From Saonia flava (lineage in GTDB: Bacteria; Bacteroidota; Bacteroidia; Flavobacteriales; Flavobacteriaceae): DNA of 64,000 nt. Positions 29,912 through 38,385 of the stretch are shown piece by piece (within the stretch, counting starts at the first letter, position 1; every line of letters begins with the position of its first letter). The position numbers were made by a program, and so were the translations under genes. The notes beneath the pieces were generated by a model that made no database searches, had not been told where the DNA came from, and saw only the letters and a program-made list of their open reading frames with translations. The stretch lies in assembly GCF_011927795.1 (NCBI RefSeq), contig NZ_JAATJJ010000001.1, positions 2,667,062 to 2,731,061 of the forward strand, written 5' to 3'.

Positions 29912-32395
29912 ATGGCAAAGAACTTAGTAATTGTAGAGTCGCCCGCAAAGGCAAAGACAATTGAGAAATTTTTAGGAAAAGATTTTAAAGTGGAATCCAG
30001 TTTTGGACACATTGCAGACCTGCCATCCAAAGAGCTGGGTGTAGATGTGGATAATGATTTTGCACCTAAATATATTGTTGATAAAGAAAAGAAGGCTCTG
30101 GTAAAAAAACTAAGGGATTTGGCAAACAAGGCAGAAACTATTTGGCTTGCGAGTGATGAGGATAGAGAAGGGGAAGCCATATCATGGCATTTGGCAGAAG
30201 AGCTAAAGTTGGATAAGGACAAAACCAAAAGAATTGTTTTTAATTCAATCACCAAAAGTGCCATCCAAAAGGCGATTGAAAATCCACGGGAGATAAACTA
30301 TAATCTTGTAAATGCACAGCAGGCAAGAAGAGTTTTGGACAGATTGGTGGGATATCAATTATCACCTGTGCTGTGGAAAAAAATTAAGCCAGGACTTTCT
30401 GCGGGTAGAGTACAGTCTGTGGCAGTACGCCTAATTGTTGAAAGAGAAAGGGACATAGAAGCCTTTGATCCGGTAGCATCATATCGGGTTGTGGCACAAT
30501 TTAAAACAAGTTCAGGTAGTGCTTTTTCCGCCAAACTGGGAAAAACTTTCACTACCAAAGAGGAAGCTGAAAAGTTTTTACAACAGAATATTGGAGCCAA
30601 TTTTTCTGTTTCTAATTTGGATAAGAAACCAGCAAAAAAATCTCCAGCGGCGCCATTTACGACATCAACCCTGCAACAAGAAGCCGCAAGAAAACTTTAT
30701 TTTTCTGTAGGCAGGACCATGCAGGTTGCCCAACGTTTGTATGAGGCCGGTCTTATTACTTATATGAGAACGGACAGTGTAAATCTTTCTGCAGAAGCCA
30801 TTAATGCGGCAAAGGACGCAATAGAGGAAAATTACGGGAAGGAATATAGCAAGGTCAGAAAGTATACTGGAAAATCCAAAGGAGCTCAAGAAGCCCATGA
30901 AGCAGTGCGTCCTACGGATATGAAAAGACAGTCGCCGTCATTGGAACGGGACCAATCCAAATTATATGAATTAATTTGGAAACGTACTTTGGCTTCCCAA
31001 ATGAGCGATGCGGAGTTGGAACGTACCAATGTAAAAATAAAGGCCAATACCCATTCAAATGAATTCAGTGCCAATGGAGAGGTAATTAAGTTTGATGGAT
31101 TCCTTAAAGTATACATGGAAGGTCAGGATGAAGAGGATTTGTCAGAAGAACAAGAGGGAATGCTGCCAGCTATGAAAGTCGGGGATGCTCTGCAGAATAA
31201 TTACATAACGGCAACAGAACGTTTTACAAGGCCGCCCTATAGATACACAGAAGCTTCTTTGGTCAAGAAATTGGAGGAACTTGGGATAGGAAGACCATCA
31301 ACCTATGCCCCTACCATTTCCACAATTCAAAATAGAGGGTATGTGGAAAAAGGAACTGTTGAAGGAACTGAAAGAAAATATTCTCAATTGGTATTGGAAG
31401 CCAATGTGGTTTCTGAAAAAGGCTTAACGGAAACTATTGGGTCCGACAAGGGGAAATTAGTGCCTACTGATATTGGTATGATTGTAAATGACTTCTTGGT
31501 GAGCAATTTTGCTACCATTCTAGATTATAATTTTACTGCTAAAGTAGAGGAGGATTTTGATGAAATTGCAGATGGGAGTGAAGATTGGCAAAAAGTAATG
31601 CGTGAGTTTTATAAGGATTTTCATCCCAATGTTTTGGATGTTGAGGAAAATGCCGAAAGAGCAAGTGGCGAGCGTGTTTTGGGAACTGATCCAAAAACAG
31701 GTAGACAGGTTGCTGTAAGATTGGGAAGGTTTGGTCCTATGGTTCAAATCGGAACTGTTGAAGAGGAAGAAAAGCCATTATTCGCCAGTTTGTTGCCAGA
31801 CCAATCGTTACAGACAATTACCTATGAAGAGGCAATGGAGCTTTTTACCCTTCCAAGAAAATTGGGAGTGTTTGAAGGAGAAGAAGTAGAGGCCAATGTA
31901 GGAAGATTTGGTCCTTATGTTAGGTTTGGAAAAAAGTTTGTCTCTTTGGAAAAAGGTGAAAGTGCTTTTGATGTGGATTTTGAAAGAGCCATTGAACTTA
32001 TAAAAGAAAAGCAAAAGGCTGATGCGCCCATAACTACATATGAGGATAAAGATGTTACAAAAGGTGTAGGTAGGTTTGGCCCTTTTATAAAGTGGGACAG
32101 CATGTTCATAAATGTGAACAAGAAGTATGATTTTGACAATCTTTCCCAAGAGGACATCGAGGAATTGATAGAGGCTAAAAAACAAAAAGAAATTGATAAA
32201 CTAGTGCAAGAATGGCCCGAAGAAAAAATACGAATAGAAAAGGCCAGATGGGGAAGGCATAACATTTTAAAGGGTAAAATAAAAGTTGAGCTATCCAAAG
32301 ATGTTGATGCTAAAAAAATCACATTGGAACAAGCAAAAGAATTAATAGAAAAGAAAACTCCAAAAAGAAAAACAAAACCAAAGGCTAAAAAATAA
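29912..32395 (+). CDS. topA: DNA topoisomerase I
   Basis: 827 residues. Type IA topoisomerase relaxing negative supercoils. The Toprim domain starts LVIVESPAKAKTI and has SDEDREGEAI (81-90). The catalytic tyrosine is Tyr284 in LITYMRTDS. The C-terminal half lacks Cys4 zinc ribbons and instead carries three to four GRFGPYV/GRFGPFI-type repeats of the Topo_C kind, followed by a Lys-rich tail. It is only two bases upstream of the ureohydrolase-fold gene, so the two are co-transcribed. Confidence 0.98.
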   Translation: MAKNLVIVESPAKAKTIEKFLGKDFKVESSFGHIADLPSKELGVDVDNDFAPKYIVDKEKKALVKKLRDLANKAETIWLASDEDREGEAISWHLAEELKLDKDKTKRIVFNSITKSAIQKAIENPREINYNLVNAQQARRVLDRLVGYQLSPVLWKKIKPGLSAGRVQSVAVRLIVERERDIEAFDPVASYRVVAQFKTSSGSAFSAKLGKTFTTKEEAEKFLQQNIGANFSVSNLDKKPAKKSPAAPFTTSTLQQEAARKLYFSVGRTMQVAQRLYEAGLITYMRTDSVNLSAEAINAAKDAIEENYGKEYSKVRKYTGKSKGAQEAHEAVRPTDMKRQSPSLERDQSKLYELIWKRTLASQMSDAELERTNVKIKANTHSNEFSANGEVIKFDGFLKVYMEGQDEEDLSEEQEGMLPAMKVGDALQNNYITATERFTRPPYRYTEASLVKKLEELGIGRPSTYAPTISTIQNRGYVEKGTVEGTERKYSQLVLEANVVSEKGLTETIGSDKGKLVPTDIGMIVNDFLVSNFATILDYNFTAKVEEDFDEIADGSEDWQKVMREFYKDFHPNVLDVEENAERASGERVLGTDPKTGRQVAVRLGRFGPMVQIGTVEEEEKPLFASLLPDQSLQTITYEEAMELFTLPRKLGVFEGEEVEANVGRFGPYVRFGKKFVSLEKGESAFDVDFERAIELIKEKQKADAPITTYEDKDVTKGVGRFGPFIKWDSMFINVNKKYDFDNLSQEDIEELIEAKKQKEIDKLVQEWPEEKIRIEKARWGRHNILKGKIKVELSKDVDAKKITLEQAKELIEKKTPKRKTKPKAKK

Positions 32396-32397
32396 AT

Positions 32398-33555
32398 ATG
32401 GCATTTGATTTTTTGATACCAGTTGCGGACAAGGTATTAGCCCATTGCGAACTTCTTCCGCCTCAGGCGCTGGGAAGCAATATCCATAAGCATACAGAGA
32501 GAAAGGGTCTTCCTGTTCTTGCCAATGCCTCCTTTGCGATAGTAGGGGTGTTAGAATCCAGAAATGCTTTTGAGAAAAAATTAGAACCCCTGAATATTTC
32601 TGAGATAAGATTGCAATTGTACAAACTAATGATGGGCAATTGGGACGCTACAATTGTAGATTTAGGTGATATAGAAGAGGGTGATAGTGTTGAGGATACC
32701 TACTTTGTGGTAAAGGAAATTGTTGCCGGTTTGTTGGAGGAAAATATAATACCTATTATTCTAGGAGCAACACAAGATATTACATATCCGGCATACAGGG
32801 CTTTTGATGGTATCAAGGACATGATAAATTTAGTGGCTGTTGACAGTAGGTTCGATTTTGGACAGGATGAAGAACTTATTTCTTCTAATTCCTATATGAG
32901 CAAAATAATTACAGATGCTCCCAACAATCTTTTTAATTTTTCCAATATTGGATATCAAAGTTATTTTAATGCCCAGGAAGAAGTGGATCTTATGGAGCGC
33001 CTGTTTTTTGATGCGTATAGGTTAGGGGATGTTTCAGCGAACATATCTTTGGCGGAACCTGTACTAAGGAATGCCCATATGGTAAGTATGGATTTAAGGG
33101 CCGTTAGGGCGAGCGATATATGTATGTCCAGTAATTTTTCCCCAAATGGTTTTAACGGAAGGGAAATATGTGCAATCGCTAGATATGCCGGAATTAGTGA
33201 TAAAGTATCTGTCTTCGGAATTTACGAAGCTGAGAATACCTCACAGACATACCAATTGATAGCTCAAATTGTTTGGTATTTTTTGGAGGGTCATAACTAT
33301 AGGGTGGAGGAGTCGCCCAATTCTAAAAATGAAGATTTCACAAAGTTCATTGTTCCCACTGATACAGAGGAATTGGTGTACTACAAAAGCCATTTAACAG
33401 AAAGATGGTGGGTAGAAGTGCCATCTATTTTAACTTCACATACTAAAACAAAATCACCTGCGTTATTACCATGCACCGAACAGGACTATCTGGATGCATG
33501 TAACCAAAATATTCCTGAAAGGTGGTTCAAAGCTTATAAGAAAGGCTTTAATTGA
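32398..33555 (+). CDS. Arginase/formiminoglutamase-fold protein with degraded metal site
   Basis: 385 residues with ureohydrolase-like architecture, including the expected three loop motifs. However, the motifs are altered. GGxH-D reads GATQD (Gln126 instead of His). DAHxD reads DSRFD (Asp149, Arg151, Asp153). SxDxDxxDP reads SMDLRAVRA (Asp232 kept, Arg234 instead of Asp, final Asp-Pro lost). At least three of the six metal ligands are therefore replaced, and normal Mn-dependent hydrolysis is unlikely. It lies two bases after topA and 119 bases before gldK. In flavobacteria a gene annotated as formimidoylglutamase is often found here (recollection). A binding, regulatory or structural role linked to gliding/secretion is possible but unproven. 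Confidence 0.8.
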   Translation: MAFDFLIPVADKVLAHCELLPPQALGSNIHKHTERKGLPVLANASFAIVGVLESRNAFEKKLEPLNISEIRLQLYKLMMGNWDATIVDLGDIEEGDSVEDTYFVVKEIVAGLLEENIIPIILGATQDITYPAYRAFDGIKDMINLVAVDSRFDFGQDEELISSNSYMSKIITDAPNNLFNFSNIGYQSYFNAQEEVDLMERLFFDAYRLGDVSANISLAEPVLRNAHMVSMDLRAVRASDICMSSNFSPNGFNGREICAIARYAGISDKVSVFGIYEAENTSQTYQLIAQIVWYFLEGHNYRVEESPNSKNEDFTKFIVPTDTEELVYYKSHLTERWWVEVPSILTSHTKTKSPALLPCTEQDYLDACNQNIPERWFKAYKKGFN

Positions 33556-33674: not shown

Positions 33675-35036
33675 ATGAAGAAGCTATTGTTACTATCTAT
33701 AGCATTTGGTTTTTTACTCACCAGTTGTGGGTCTAAAACACAGGGGGAACTCGTAGGAGCCAAAGGAAAGAAGTGGTATCCTGAAAAACCCTATGGAATG
33801 GAACTTATTCCTCAGGGTGCATTCATTATGGGTAAGTCTGAAGAGGATATGGCAAAAGTCATGAGCGCACCAACAAAAACAGTAACTGTAAGATCGTTCT
33901 ATATGGATGATACAGAAATAACTAATAGCGAATATCGTCAGTTTGTGGAATGGGTTAAAGACTCCATTACTAGAACCAAATTGGCCATCTTGGCGGATGA
34001 GTTAGGATTAGGTCCAGAAGATGGAGGTATTGGTGATTATGCATTTAAAGATGCAGATACAACCAAGATGTCTGTTTATGACAAATACATGATGGACAAT
34101 TATTCTGGAATGGGGGAAACAGGTTATGAAGGTAGAGCTTTGAACATGGATGAAAATCTTGTTTGGGATACTTCTGATTATCCAGATGAGTATTATGCCG
34201 AAATTATGGACTCAATATATATTCCAGAAGAAGAGTCATATAATGGTCAAAGAACTGTAGATGTAACTATATTAAAATATAAATACAGTTGGATGGATAT
34301 TGAAGCCGCTGCTCGTTCTAGATCAGGTAGTAGAAAGGATTTTATAAGACAGGAGGAATTGGAAATCTATCCAGATACAACTGTTTGGATCAGGGATTTC
34401 TCATACTCTTATAATGAGCCCATGCACAACGATTATTTTTGGCACGATGCCTATAGTGATTATCCTGTTGTGGGAGTTTCATGGGCACAGGCGAAAGCAT
34501 TCTGTAACTGGAGAACCAAGTTCAAGAATGATGATCAAAAAGATAAAGGCAAACAGTTTGTAAATCAGTTTAGATTGCCAACGGAAGCTGAGTGGGAATA
34601 TGCGGCAAGAGGAGGTATAGAAAGTGGAACGTACCCTTGGGGTGGTCCTTATGTAATTAGTGATACAGGTTGCTTTATGGCAAACTTTAAACCCCAGCGT
34701 GGAGATTATGCGGCAGATACGGCACTGTATACTGTAGAAGCCAAATCTTTTGAGCCAAACGATTATAACTTGTTCAATATGGCAGGAAATGTATCAGAGT
34801 GGACCAACTCTAGTTACGATCCAAACTCATATGAATATGTTTCAACGATGAATCCAAATGCCATATCTGGCGATAACGAAAGAAAAGTTATTAGAGGTGG
34901 TTCTTGGAAGGATGTTGCATATTTTTTACAAGTTAGTACAAGAGATTATGAATACCAAGATTCTGCTAGAAGTTACATAGGATTCCGTACAGTACAGGAT
35001 TTTATGGGCGAAGAGGACCCTAAAGGAATCAGATAA
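33675..35036 (+). CDS. gldK: Gliding motility/type IX secretion lipoprotein GldK
   Basis: 453-residue lipoprotein (signal ending LLTSC, Cys18) with a formylglycine-generating-enzyme-like (SUMF1) fold: GMELIPQGAFIMG at the start, WAQAKAFCNWR and LPTEAEWEYAARGG in the middle, MAGNVSEWT and RGGSWKD then GFRTV at the end. GldK and GldN build the outer-membrane-associated ring of the type IX secretion and gliding apparatus. First gene of gldKLMN. The upstream 119 bases contain a palindrome (AATTG-TATAA-CAATT, 33626-33640). Confidence 0.97.
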   Translation: MKKLLLLSIAFGFLLTSCGSKTQGELVGAKGKKWYPEKPYGMELIPQGAFIMGKSEEDMAKVMSAPTKTVTVRSFYMDDTEITNSEYRQFVEWVKDSITRTKLAILADELGLGPEDGGIGDYAFKDADTTKMSVYDKYMMDNYSGMGETGYEGRALNMDENLVWDTSDYPDEYYAEIMDSIYIPEEESYNGQRTVDVTILKYKYSWMDIEAAARSRSGSRKDFIRQEELEIYPDTTVWIRDFSYSYNEPMHNDYFWHDAYSDYPVVGVSWAQAKAFCNWRTKFKNDDQKDKGKQFVNQFRLPTEAEWEYAARGGIESGTYPWGGPYVISDTGCFMANFKPQRGDYAADTALYTVEAKSFEPNDYNLFNMAGNVSEWTNSSYDPNSYEYVSTMNPNAISGDNERKVIRGGSWKDVAYFLQVSTRDYEYQDSARSYIGFRTVQDFMGEEDPKGIR

Positions 35037-35113: not shown

Positions 35114-35767
35114 ATGGCACAGTCGAAATCAACAAAAAAATTATTTGCAATGGCCTATGGCCTTGGAGCTTCAGTCGTTATTATTGGAGCGTTATTTAAA
35201 ATCCTTCACTGGGAGTTTGGACCTTTAACTGGGGGACTTCTTTTAGCTGTAGGTCTTATAACAGAGGCTCTTATTTTTGCAATTAGTGCATTTGAACCAA
35301 TAGAAGAAGACGTGGATTGGTCTTTGGTATACCCAGAATTAGCGGGTGGACAAGCTAGTGGTAAGAAAAAGAGCGAAGCTCAGGAAGCTCAAGAAGCAGA
35401 AGGATTATTATCTAAAAAATTAGATAGTTTGTTAAAAGAAGCCGGTGTAGATGCCGAGTTAATGACAAGCTTAGGTTCTAGCATTAAGAACTTTGAAGGT
35501 GCTGCTAAGGGAATTGCTCCTACAGTTGACGCTATGGAATCTACTAAAAAGTATTCTGATGAAATGTCTCAAGCGGCAGCTCAAATGGAGTCTTTGAACA
35601 GTTTGTATAAAGTACAATTGGAAAGTGCTAGTAGACAAGCTTCTATCAATGAAGAAGTTGTTGAGAAATCTGGAGCACTTAAAGATCAAATGGAATCTTT
35701 GGCAACTAACCTTTCTTCTTTAAATGGAGTTTACGGTGGTATGCTATCAGCTATGAGTAAAAACTAA
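35114..35767 (+). CDS. gldL: Gliding motility/type IX secretion motor protein GldL
   Basis: 217 residues. Two N-terminal membrane helices (about 12-32 and 37-59) with the FKILHW loop between them. Glu51 in the second helix matches the conserved glutamate thought to carry protons in GldL of F. johnsoniae. The remainder is a cytoplasmic, largely helical domain rich in Ala/Ser/Glu. With GldM it forms the proton-driven rotary motor powering secretion and gliding. It lies 77 bases after gldK. Confidence 0.97.
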   Translation: MAQSKSTKKLFAMAYGLGASVVIIGALFKILHWEFGPLTGGLLLAVGLITEALIFAISAFEPIEEDVDWSLVYPELAGGQASGKKKSEAQEAQEAEGLLSKKLDSLLKEAGVDAELMTSLGSSIKNFEGAAKGIAPTVDAMESTKKYSDEMSQAAAQMESLNSLYKVQLESASRQASINEEVVEKSGALKDQMESLATNLSSLNGVYGGMLSAMSKN

Positions 35768-35826: not shown

Positions 35827-37395
35827 ATGGCATCAGGAAAACAAGGGCCACGGCAGAAGATGATCAACTTAATGTATTTGGTCTTCATATGTATGCTGGC
35901 ATTAAATATGAGTAAAGAAGTTCTTGCAGCTTTCGGCCTTATGAACGAAAAGATGGAGACTTCAAACAAAAAAACCGGAGAGAGCAATCTTGCCTTCTTG
36001 ACAGGTTTGGAGACTAAAGCGACTGAAAACGAGGAAAAGTTTGGTCCTCTATACAAAAAGGCGCAAGAAATTAAGAGCTTGTCCCAAGAGTATTATGATT
36101 ATTTAGAAGGCTTAAAAAAGGATATTACCAAAGATGTGGAAGATCCTAAAGATTATGCCGTAATGGATAAGTCGGATCACTTGGATGAAAAATTCTTTCA
36201 AGGTGATAACTTGGGTAAAGAAGGTAAAGAGTTCGTGAAGAGGATTACAGATTACCGTACTAAGGTTTCGGCTATTTTACCAGCAGAAATGAAAGAAGTA
36301 AAGACAGCAGTTTTAACTCGATTTGAAACTGGTGATGCTAATGGTAAAGTTGAGAAAAGAGACGGTACAAAGCAAGATTGGATCAATTATCATTATGAAG
36401 GTTTTCCTTTGATTGCTTCTTTGACCAAATTAACTGCCTTGCAGGCTGATATTAAAGCAACTGAAGAAGACGCTTTAAAATCTATGTTGGAAGGTCAGTT
36501 GACCAGTGAAATCTCTATGACCAACTATACAACTTTATTGGAACAAGAAAAGTCAGCTTACTATGCTGGTGAGAAGTTCACAGGAAGTATAGTGTTGGGA
36601 CGTAAAGATGCTTCTACTAGACCAAATGAGGTAAACATTACTTTGGATGGTAGAAAGTTGACTGAAGGTAAAGATTTTGCTATCGAAGATGGTAAAGTAA
36701 AATTATTGGTAAGTGCAGGCGGCCCTGGAGATCATGAATTAAAAGGAAACTTGGTATTCTTGCAGGATGGTGAGAGAACAGAAGTGCCTGTGTCTCAAAA
36801 ATTCGCGACAATTACCAAGCCAAATGCTGCTTTAATTGCTGCTGATAAAATGAATGTTGTATATCGTGGTGTTGCTAACCCAATGTCTATTTCCATTCCT
36901 GGAATTCCTGACAATAAAGTTTCAGCATCTGCTCCTGGTCTTACCAAGAGAAGTGGTAGTAAATATGTAATGAATCCTGGTAAAGGTAGAACAGTAAAGA
37001 TTATCGCATCTGGTGTATTGCCTGATGGTCAACGTATCTCTACTCCTGCCGAGTTTAGAATTAAAGATATTCCAAGACCATCTGGTTCTATTAGAGGAGA
37101 ATCTGGTAGTGCAAAAATGCCAAGAACAAACTTGGAGATTGCAACTGTTGGGGCCTTATTGGAAGATTTTGATTTTGACCTTAATCTTGCCGTAAGTGGA
37201 TTTAAGTTTAAAGTGCCTGGACAACCAACTATCAATGTAAGAGGTAATAAGTTGGACGGTAGAGCTAAGTCAGCTCTTAGAAGGGCAAAAAGAGGTGATG
37301 CTGTTCAGATTTTTGACGTAGAAGCATACATTACCAATAACAGAGGCTACAAGTTGAAAAAAGTATCTCCTGTTGTTGTTGAAATTACAAACTAG
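35827..37395 (+). CDS. gldM: Gliding motility/type IX secretion motor protein GldM
   Basis: 522 residues: short cytoplasmic start with Arg9, one membrane helix (about 12-34), then a long periplasmic region of four beta/helical domains that spans to the GldKN ring. The opening GKQGPRQKMINLMYLVF is diagnostic. It couples proton flow through GldL to torque on the outer-membrane ring. It lies 59 bases after gldL, and a long hairpin follows it before gldN. Confidence 0.97.
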   Translation: MASGKQGPRQKMINLMYLVFICMLALNMSKEVLAAFGLMNEKMETSNKKTGESNLAFLTGLETKATENEEKFGPLYKKAQEIKSLSQEYYDYLEGLKKDITKDVEDPKDYAVMDKSDHLDEKFFQGDNLGKEGKEFVKRITDYRTKVSAILPAEMKEVKTAVLTRFETGDANGKVEKRDGTKQDWINYHYEGFPLIASLTKLTALQADIKATEEDALKSMLEGQLTSEISMTNYTTLLEQEKSAYYAGEKFTGSIVLGRKDASTRPNEVNITLDGRKLTEGKDFAIEDGKVKLLVSAGGPGDHELKGNLVFLQDGERTEVPVSQKFATITKPNAALIAADKMNVVYRGVANPMSISIPGIPDNKVSASAPGLTKRSGSKYVMNPGKGRTVKIIASGVLPDGQRISTPAEFRIKDIPRPSGSIRGESGSAKMPRTNLEIATVGALLEDFDFDLNLAVSGFKFKVPGQPTINVRGNKLDGRAKSALRRAKRGDAVQIFDVEAYITNNRGYKLKKVSPVVVEITN

Positions 37396-37482: not shown

Positions 37483-38385
37483 ATGAATTGGAAGAATGTT
37501 TTATTTATTGGAGCTGTAGCTCTGTTACCAATGTCCATGATGGCACAGGCAAATATTTTAAATGCCAAAAAGCCAACTGAGATTGGAGTAAAAACAGAAG
37601 CACAAATTGCTCAAGATAATGATGCTCCTCTAGAATATGCCTATGTGGATGAAAGGGATATTCTTTGGTCCAAGACTTTATGGGAAACTATTGATTTGGA
37701 CGAGCGTGTTAATTTTCCTTTGTACTATCCTACGGATACTATTGATATAGGATCGGATAGAAGGTCGTTATATGATGTTTTTATGAAAAACATTAGAAAC
37801 GGTAAGCTAACTGATATCTATGCAGATTCTTATTTTACAGAAAAGCGTACTCTTGATGATATTAGAGGTGCTTTGCAAAAAGTGGATACCACGGATTATG
37901 GATACGAACAGTATAATGCAGGTGAGCAAATTTCTCCCGAATATATTAACAAAAGAGACCTAACTGCCGCTGATATTGAAGAATATCATATAAAAGGTAT
38001 TTGGTATTTTGACAAACGTTTAGGGGAATTAAAGTATAGATTGTTGGGTATTGCACCTGTGGCACCGGATGTTAATTTTATAGATGACGAGTCTATGGAT
38101 TTAGAAGATGCCAAGGTAGAATTGTTCTGGGTTTGGTATCCAAGCGCAAGAGAGATTTTACATGAGGCCAAGGTATTTAACCAAAGAAATTCTGCACAAC
38201 CCATATCCTATGATATGTTGTTGAACGCAAGAAGGTTCAATGCAATTATCTATAGAGAGGATAACGTTCATGGAGACCGTAAGGTGAATGACTATGTTAC
38301 AGATAATGCTCTATTCCAGTTGTTGGAGGCCAAACGTATTAAGGAAACTATCAGAGATAGAGAACAAGATATGTGGGCTTATTAG
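37483..38385 (+). CDS. gldN: Gliding motility/type IX secretion protein GldN
   Basis: 300 residues with a signal peptide (MNWKNVLFIGAVALLPMSMMAQA). Conserved parts include DERDILWSKTLWETIDLDERVNFPLYYP near the start and the VELFWVWYPSAREILHEAKVFN segment. It forms the periplasmic ring with GldK under the outer membrane. Last gene of gldKLMN, followed by a strong terminator. (Key residues given by short segments; the family match spans the full length.). Confidence 0.96.
   Translation: MNWKNVLFIGAVALLPMSMMAQANILNAKKPTEIGVKTEAQIAQDNDAPLEYAYVDERDILWSKTLWETIDLDERVNFPLYYPTDTIDIGSDRRSLYDVFMKNIRNGKLTDIYADSYFTEKRTLDDIRGALQKVDTTDYGYEQYNAGEQISPEYINKRDLTAADIEEYHIKGIWYFDKRLGELKYRLLGIAPVAPDVNFIDDESMDLEDAKVELFWVWYPSAREILHEAKVFNQRNSAQPISYDMLLNARRFNAIIYREDNVHGDRKVNDYVTDNALFQLLEAKRIKETIRDREQDMWAY

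Follow-up and report, generated by a model that had tools for sequence, protein, structure and literature searches.

Locus and gene content

The window, i.e. the whole stretch of DNA that was analysed (64,000 nucleotides), carries an arginase-family open reading frame directly between topA and the gldKLMN genes of the type IX secretion system (T9SS), as the sequence-only reading had described (Table 1). The family of this gene is named PSA here (for pseudo-ureohydrolase); "class" and "order" are those of the window genome unless the order of genome G465 is named. A single gldN is present in the window; two tandem gldN-like genes occur in some Flavobacteriaceae loci (L112:2074-4239, L113:13619-15781).

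Table 1. Features of the PSA locus (window coordinates)
Feature	Coordinates	Strand	Evidence
topA, ending 2 bases 5' of PSA	29912..32395	+	Pfam Topoisom_bac
PSA, pseudo-ureohydrolase gene, ATG start, 385 aa + stop	32398..33555	+	ORF; PF00491, 37.2 bits
Gln126 codon, first of the metal-ligand positions (SpeB has His, 3m1r Asn)	32773..32775	+	alignment
Codons 149-153, D-S-R-F-D (D149 and D153 retained, His151 to Arg)	32842..32856	+	alignment
Codons 232-234, D-L-R (D232 retained, Asp234 to Arg)	33091..33099	+	alignment
C-terminal extension, residues ~304-385 (KS..RWW..LLPC..DYLDAC..PERW)	33307..33552	+	alignment gap and range of structural matches
gldK, 119 bases 3' of PSA	33675..35036	+	TIGR03525, 602 bits
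gldL	35114..35767	+	TIGR03513, 228 bits
gldM	35827..37395	+	TIGR03517, 445 bits
gldN	37483..38385	+	TIGR03523, 266 bits

Fold and ancestry

PSA belongs to the arginase/ureohydrolase superfamily both by sequence profile and by fold. It scored 37.2 bits against Pfam PF00491 (cut-off 22), and its best profile match was the formimidoylglutamase 3m1r (E 1.5e-18). Against the TIGR01227 hutG model it reached 42.5 bits, far under the cut-off of 229.15, and by that score does not rank as a HutG equivalog; two outgroup rows also fell slightly below this cut-off (210 bits), with ligands intact except for one Asn in L089.

An AlphaFold2 model (ma2e993c82b28), built from 46 sequences of the window and related loci, had a pLDDT of 81.4 and a pTM of 0.85. 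Its top structural match was the T. cruzi formiminoglutamase 4mxr (Z 30.6, rmsd 2.4 Å over 266 residues, model residues 21-303), 4myn also being among the top formiminoglutamase matches (Z up to 30.6 for the two); metformin hydrolase (Z ~27) and agmatinases ranked after the formiminoglutamases. The arginase/formiminoglutamase fold recognised earlier from the letters is thus confirmed by profile and structure. In a quick tree of 65 rows, PSA formed one side of a branch separating it from the outgroup (SH-aLRT 97). PSA had no match in PADLOC or PHROGs, and a defence or phage origin was rejected on this basis.

Metal ligands

In E. coli SpeB the metals are bound by H126, D149, H151, D153, D230 and D232 (PMC8049259). 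At the aligned positions, the window PSA reads Q126, D149, R151, D153, D232 and R234, so that three of six are changed and the ligand set of a catalytic ureohydrolase (H/N, D, H, D, D, D) is replaced by Q, D, R, D, D, R. The change to Gln126 is the least telling and is weak evidence alone, because a real formimidoylglutamase has Asn there (Bacillus 3m1r reads GGDN, with Asn at position 126).

Canonical ligands were counted in 182 PSA members, a redundant set made up mostly of Flavobacteriales in which several genomes appear twice (e.g. L004 and L110), and which leaves out L079 (no usable ORF), L001 (the window itself) and L032-L062. With Asn allowed at position 126, 1 member had no canonical ligand, 3 had one, 12 had two, 145 had three and 21 had four; five or six were found in 0/182, and H151 together with D234 likewise in 0/182. 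All 8 outgroup/canonical rows carry H151, D232 and D234. We take the metal assignment to be that of rat arginase, with positions 126, 149, 153 and 232 binding the A metal and 149, 151, 232 and 234 the B metal; on this assignment PSA has lost the B site and retains a half-site.

Among 57 diverse members, the A-site carboxylates are largely retained (D149 in 88%, D153 in 82%, D232 in 88%), and conservation is likewise seen at D127 (86%), C258 (88%) and C359 (98%). In the conservation ranking of the 385 positions, 151 and 234 come only 299th and 206th: Arg151 and Arg234 themselves vary, and what is constant is the absence of the His151/Asp234 pair. D149, D153 and D232 are all altered in the loci of family f5 and in L087, and the GGxxD stretch is absent in L085 and L086, both of the divergent family f19, and cannot be recognised in L088. 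The remaining family signature, including the C-terminal part, persists in all of these members, which argues for selection on something other than metal catalysis. The f5 members (L081-L083, L102) have at least four of six metal ligands changed, a long stem branch and a PSA gene separated from gldKLMN.

The sequence-only reading had listed Gln126, Arg151 and Arg234 as lost ligands and had judged manganese catalysis improbable. The alignment with SpeB bears out all three losses, and catalysis by a binuclear manganese centre does appear improbable for the family, in which none of the 182 members exceeds four ligands or combines H151 with D234.

Sequence constraint and C-terminal extension

The most conserved residues among the 57 diverse members are W337, W293, G251, Q187, C359, G265, R224, P221 and E220. 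The 8 outgroup/canonical rows all lack R224, W337 and C359, and one of them has E220. W337 and C359, together with D363 and Y364, fall in a C-terminal extension of about 80 aa, which is a gap in all 8 of these rows and lies outside residues 14-303, the range spanned by at least one fifth of the structural matches. A sequence search of the extension against solved structures gave no match, nor did Foldseek with the extension alone at E <0.09, the query being a stand-alone model with a mean pLDDT of only 64.8.

Median dN/dS of PSA was 0.034 (14/78 pairs usable, 13 close relatives), against 0.031 for TopA (8/78), 0.024 for GldK (20/78) and 0.104 for GldM (49/78) in the same relatives, all values being rough because dS is near saturation. 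PSA is under purifying selection similar to that on topA, and the gene is both retained and strongly constrained.

Gene order across the class

In 80 named Flavobacteriaceae loci, gldK adjoins PSA downstream in 80/80 and topA adjoins it upstream in 77/80 (the others being two contig ends and one 639-base gap, as measured by blast). At the level of the class, comparison was made on the 88 genomes with coordinates listed for both PSA and gldM: gldM comes after PSA, on the same strand and no more than 8 kb away, in 56/88 genomes and 24/36 families, and PSA is not near gldM in the other 32 genomes, being unlinked from gldKLMN in other families. PSA thus shows the linkage to core genes expected of a T9SS component. 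In 20 loci from 20 families, picked because PSA and gldM are linked, PSA is separated from gldK by a PorP/SprF-like gene in 20/20, and topA is directly upstream in 18/20; the PorP assignment is supported by PF11751 on L118. The order topA-PSA-porP-gldK-gldL-gldM is common to many families of the class (L203-L222), the window having no porP between PSA and gldK. The order topA-PSA-(porP)-gldKLMN is old and class-wide, and the place of PSA beside gldKLMN is ancient.

The gene had also been described as locked in this place, which does not hold. The linked or unlinked state changes at least 4 times on the quick tree (65 rows), and in four regions (L230, L231, L237 and L238, from genomes G033, G035, G553 and G612) porP or gldK comes straight after topA, with PSA absent. 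In these at least four genomes PSA has apparently been lost and the T9SS kept, by separate losses in different families. The spacing of the genes is also uneven in Flavobacteriaceae, the topA-PSA gap being at most 15 bases in 57/78 loci and the PSA-gldK gap 108-269 bases. The motif TANNTTTG, which we take to be promoter-like, is enriched in the PSA-gldK gap (27/79 vs 12.8 expected). Given the tight gap to topA and the loose one, with TANNTTTG, to gldK, PSA may share its transcription with topA and not with gldKLMN.

A second T9SS context is found in one clade only, family f19, where PSA has murF, gldJ, a PorP-family gene and porU as neighbours. Strongly eroded PSA genes (277-335 aa; L085:8454-9284, L086:8996-9829, L088:7652-8656) are convergent to murF and beside gldJ, with a PorP-family gene in L085 and L086 and a PorU-like gene nearby in all three. 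Away from T9SS genes, PSA can adjoin cell-wall genes (L074:7317-8705, L072:7945-9590), namely a PBP4-like carboxypeptidase in one family, and an N-acetylglucosamine-kinase-like gene with a MurNAc-6-P etherase in another.

Distribution of PSA and the T9SS

Using a profile from the wide alignment A2, PSA was found in 235/247 class genomes at E<=1e-5 and in 232 at E<1e-50, the stricter count leaving out the weak matches in G383, G411 and G409 (E ~1e-20 to 1e-22); those in G576, G579 and G613 (order of G465) and in G036 (window's order) were likewise left out. GldM (TIGR03517) was found in 239/247. At 1e-5 (n=247), both were present in 233 genomes, neither in 6, PSA only in 2 (G381, G524) and GldM only in 6 (Fisher p 8e-8, without correction for phylogeny). 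In the window's order (n=196, PSA at E<1e-40, compared by eye), the counts were 148 with both, 1 with PSA only (G618), 7 with GldM only and 40 with neither; in the order of G465 (n=79, E<1e-50), they were 55, 1 (G594), 20 and 3, respectively. Few independent events underlie this co-occurrence, since 16 among the 20 GldM-negative genomes listed for the window's order belong to one family and are reduced in size (0.3-0.6 Mb).

PSA without the T9SS is very rare. In G381 a contig ends 471 bases from the gene, and in G594 and G618 porP and gldK stand beside it before the contig breaks off, which leaves only G524 as a possible true exception. In the other direction, 7/155 GldM-positive genomes of the window's order and 20/75 of the order of G465 have no PSA, and 20 regions around gldM in PSA-negative genomes contained no PSA even at E<=10, the four regions named above being among these 20. 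PSA is therefore not obligatory for the T9SS, a component of which would be expected in every genome with the system. GldB (TIGR03514) is present in 29/31 PSA-negative and 40/42 PSA-positive genomes, all GldM-positive; as it does not separate the genomes, gliding rather than secretion was rejected as the sorting factor.

Proposed role and alternative explanations

PSA is best read as a protein of ureohydrolase descent that is non-catalytic or retains one metal at most; it is presumably cytoplasmic, as no signal sequence is evident by eye. It probably has a new, non-standard job, because half of the metal site is lost and the gene is nevertheless kept beside gliding and secretion genes in most of the class. 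PSA descends from a formiminoglutamase-like ureohydrolase, has lost the B-metal ligands (His151, Asp234), in most members still has the carboxylates of the second site, and has gained the C-terminal extension. It would no longer hydrolyse guanidino compounds by the two-manganese route and may act as a binder through a conserved surface made up of the ancestral fold and the added C-terminal part, the old pocket perhaps holding a ligand or a single ion. The likeliest partner would be a component of the T9SS/gliding apparatus, e.g. the cytoplasmic side of the GldL-GldM motor, at which the role of PSA may be accessory or regulatory and non-essential.

A link to the T9SS is plausible on comparative sequence data, and the combined reading, in which an old enzyme has become a binding protein that serves the type IX machinery as an accessory, is put forward tentatively as the likeliest of those considered. 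A more far-reaching version is improbable as a whole: PSA would be a class-ancestral cytoplasmic accessory of the T9SS/gliding motor, lost only in some lineages, whose half-dismantled pocket and C-terminal part would detect a metabolite or ion and modulate the GldL-GldM motor or ring assembly.

The uneven spacing of the genes would also fit a housekeeping protein linked to topA and co-translated with DNA topoisomerase I, gldKLMN being merely the next operon and slow decay of gene order accounting for the rest. Family f5, in which PSA is near topA and not gldKLMN, and the four genomes in which topA and porP/gldKLMN remain adjacent without PSA agree with this. However, those same four genomes retain topA, the loci of families f17, f18, f22 and f23 show no topA in the 16-18 kb around PSA, and PSA is absent from almost all GldM-negative genomes; we consider this explanation rather doubtful. 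That PSA is still an enzyme, working with one metal in what remains of the A site (D149, D153, D232) or by a metal-free route, is favoured by the frequent retention of these carboxylates and of D127, C258 and C359. It is nonetheless unlikely, the carboxylates and GGxxD having been changed or erased in f5, L085, L086, L087 and L088, in which the family signature persists, and the guanidinium-binding His of SpeB (H163) being aligned, by eye, to a non-His residue.

Finally, PSA might join an active ureohydrolase in a mixed hexamer as its non-catalytic subunit, in the way that MetCb accompanies MetCa in metformin hydrolase. The best fold matches of PSA include metformin hydrolase chains (Z ~27), and one canonical paralog exists in its own genome; MetCb is presented as a binder with five of six ligands lost, its clade lacking three to five (PMC11271267). 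Against this, PSA has no active homologue beside it, as a partner of the MetCb type would, the only other arginase-family (PF00491) gene of its genome being ~2 Mb away, and in 3/71 PSA-positive genomes (G137, G298, G370) no further arginase-family gene is matched at E<=0.001, which weakens the partner explanation further and leaves it very improbable. Should the link to the T9SS be true, type IX secretion and gliding would gain a cytoplasmic partner absent from the literature found, and whether the motor is under metabolism-derived control could be put to the test. If the link is false, PSA, which is constrained across the class like the topoisomerase and has abandoned its catalytic site, still offers a clean case for pseudoenzyme function, and genes of the family should not be annotated as formimidoylglutamases.

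Comparison with known systems

PSA shares the arginase fold with HutG (TIGR01227; 3m1r, 1xfk, 4mxr), from which it differs by the missing B-site ligands, the extra C-terminal part and its score (42.5 vs 229 bits). It resembles the inactive metformin hydrolase subunit, MetCb or MefH-beta, as an arginase-family protein with several ligands lost, and the binder role proposed here is that of MetCb (PMC11271267 and PMC11399263, the latter describing MefH-beta as inactive). MetCb works together with an active relative; the window locus contains none for PSA, which occurs throughout the class. The Trypanosoma brucei arginase-like protein without a manganese cluster, known from a reference title in PMC11271267, likewise combines a ureohydrolase fold with the absence of a binuclear site.

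With the PorP/SprF-GldKLMN core of the T9SS, PSA shares its locus across the class; T9SS-positive lineages without PSA exist, and it is not a described component of this core in the literature found. In the literature outside subscription on T9SS or gliding genes with arginase, formimidoylglutamase or topA, no paper was, judging by its listing, concerned with PSA. Pseudo-ureohydrolases as a kind are already known; what is new is the PSA family, with its class-wide presence, its added C-terminal part and its T9SS neighbourhood.
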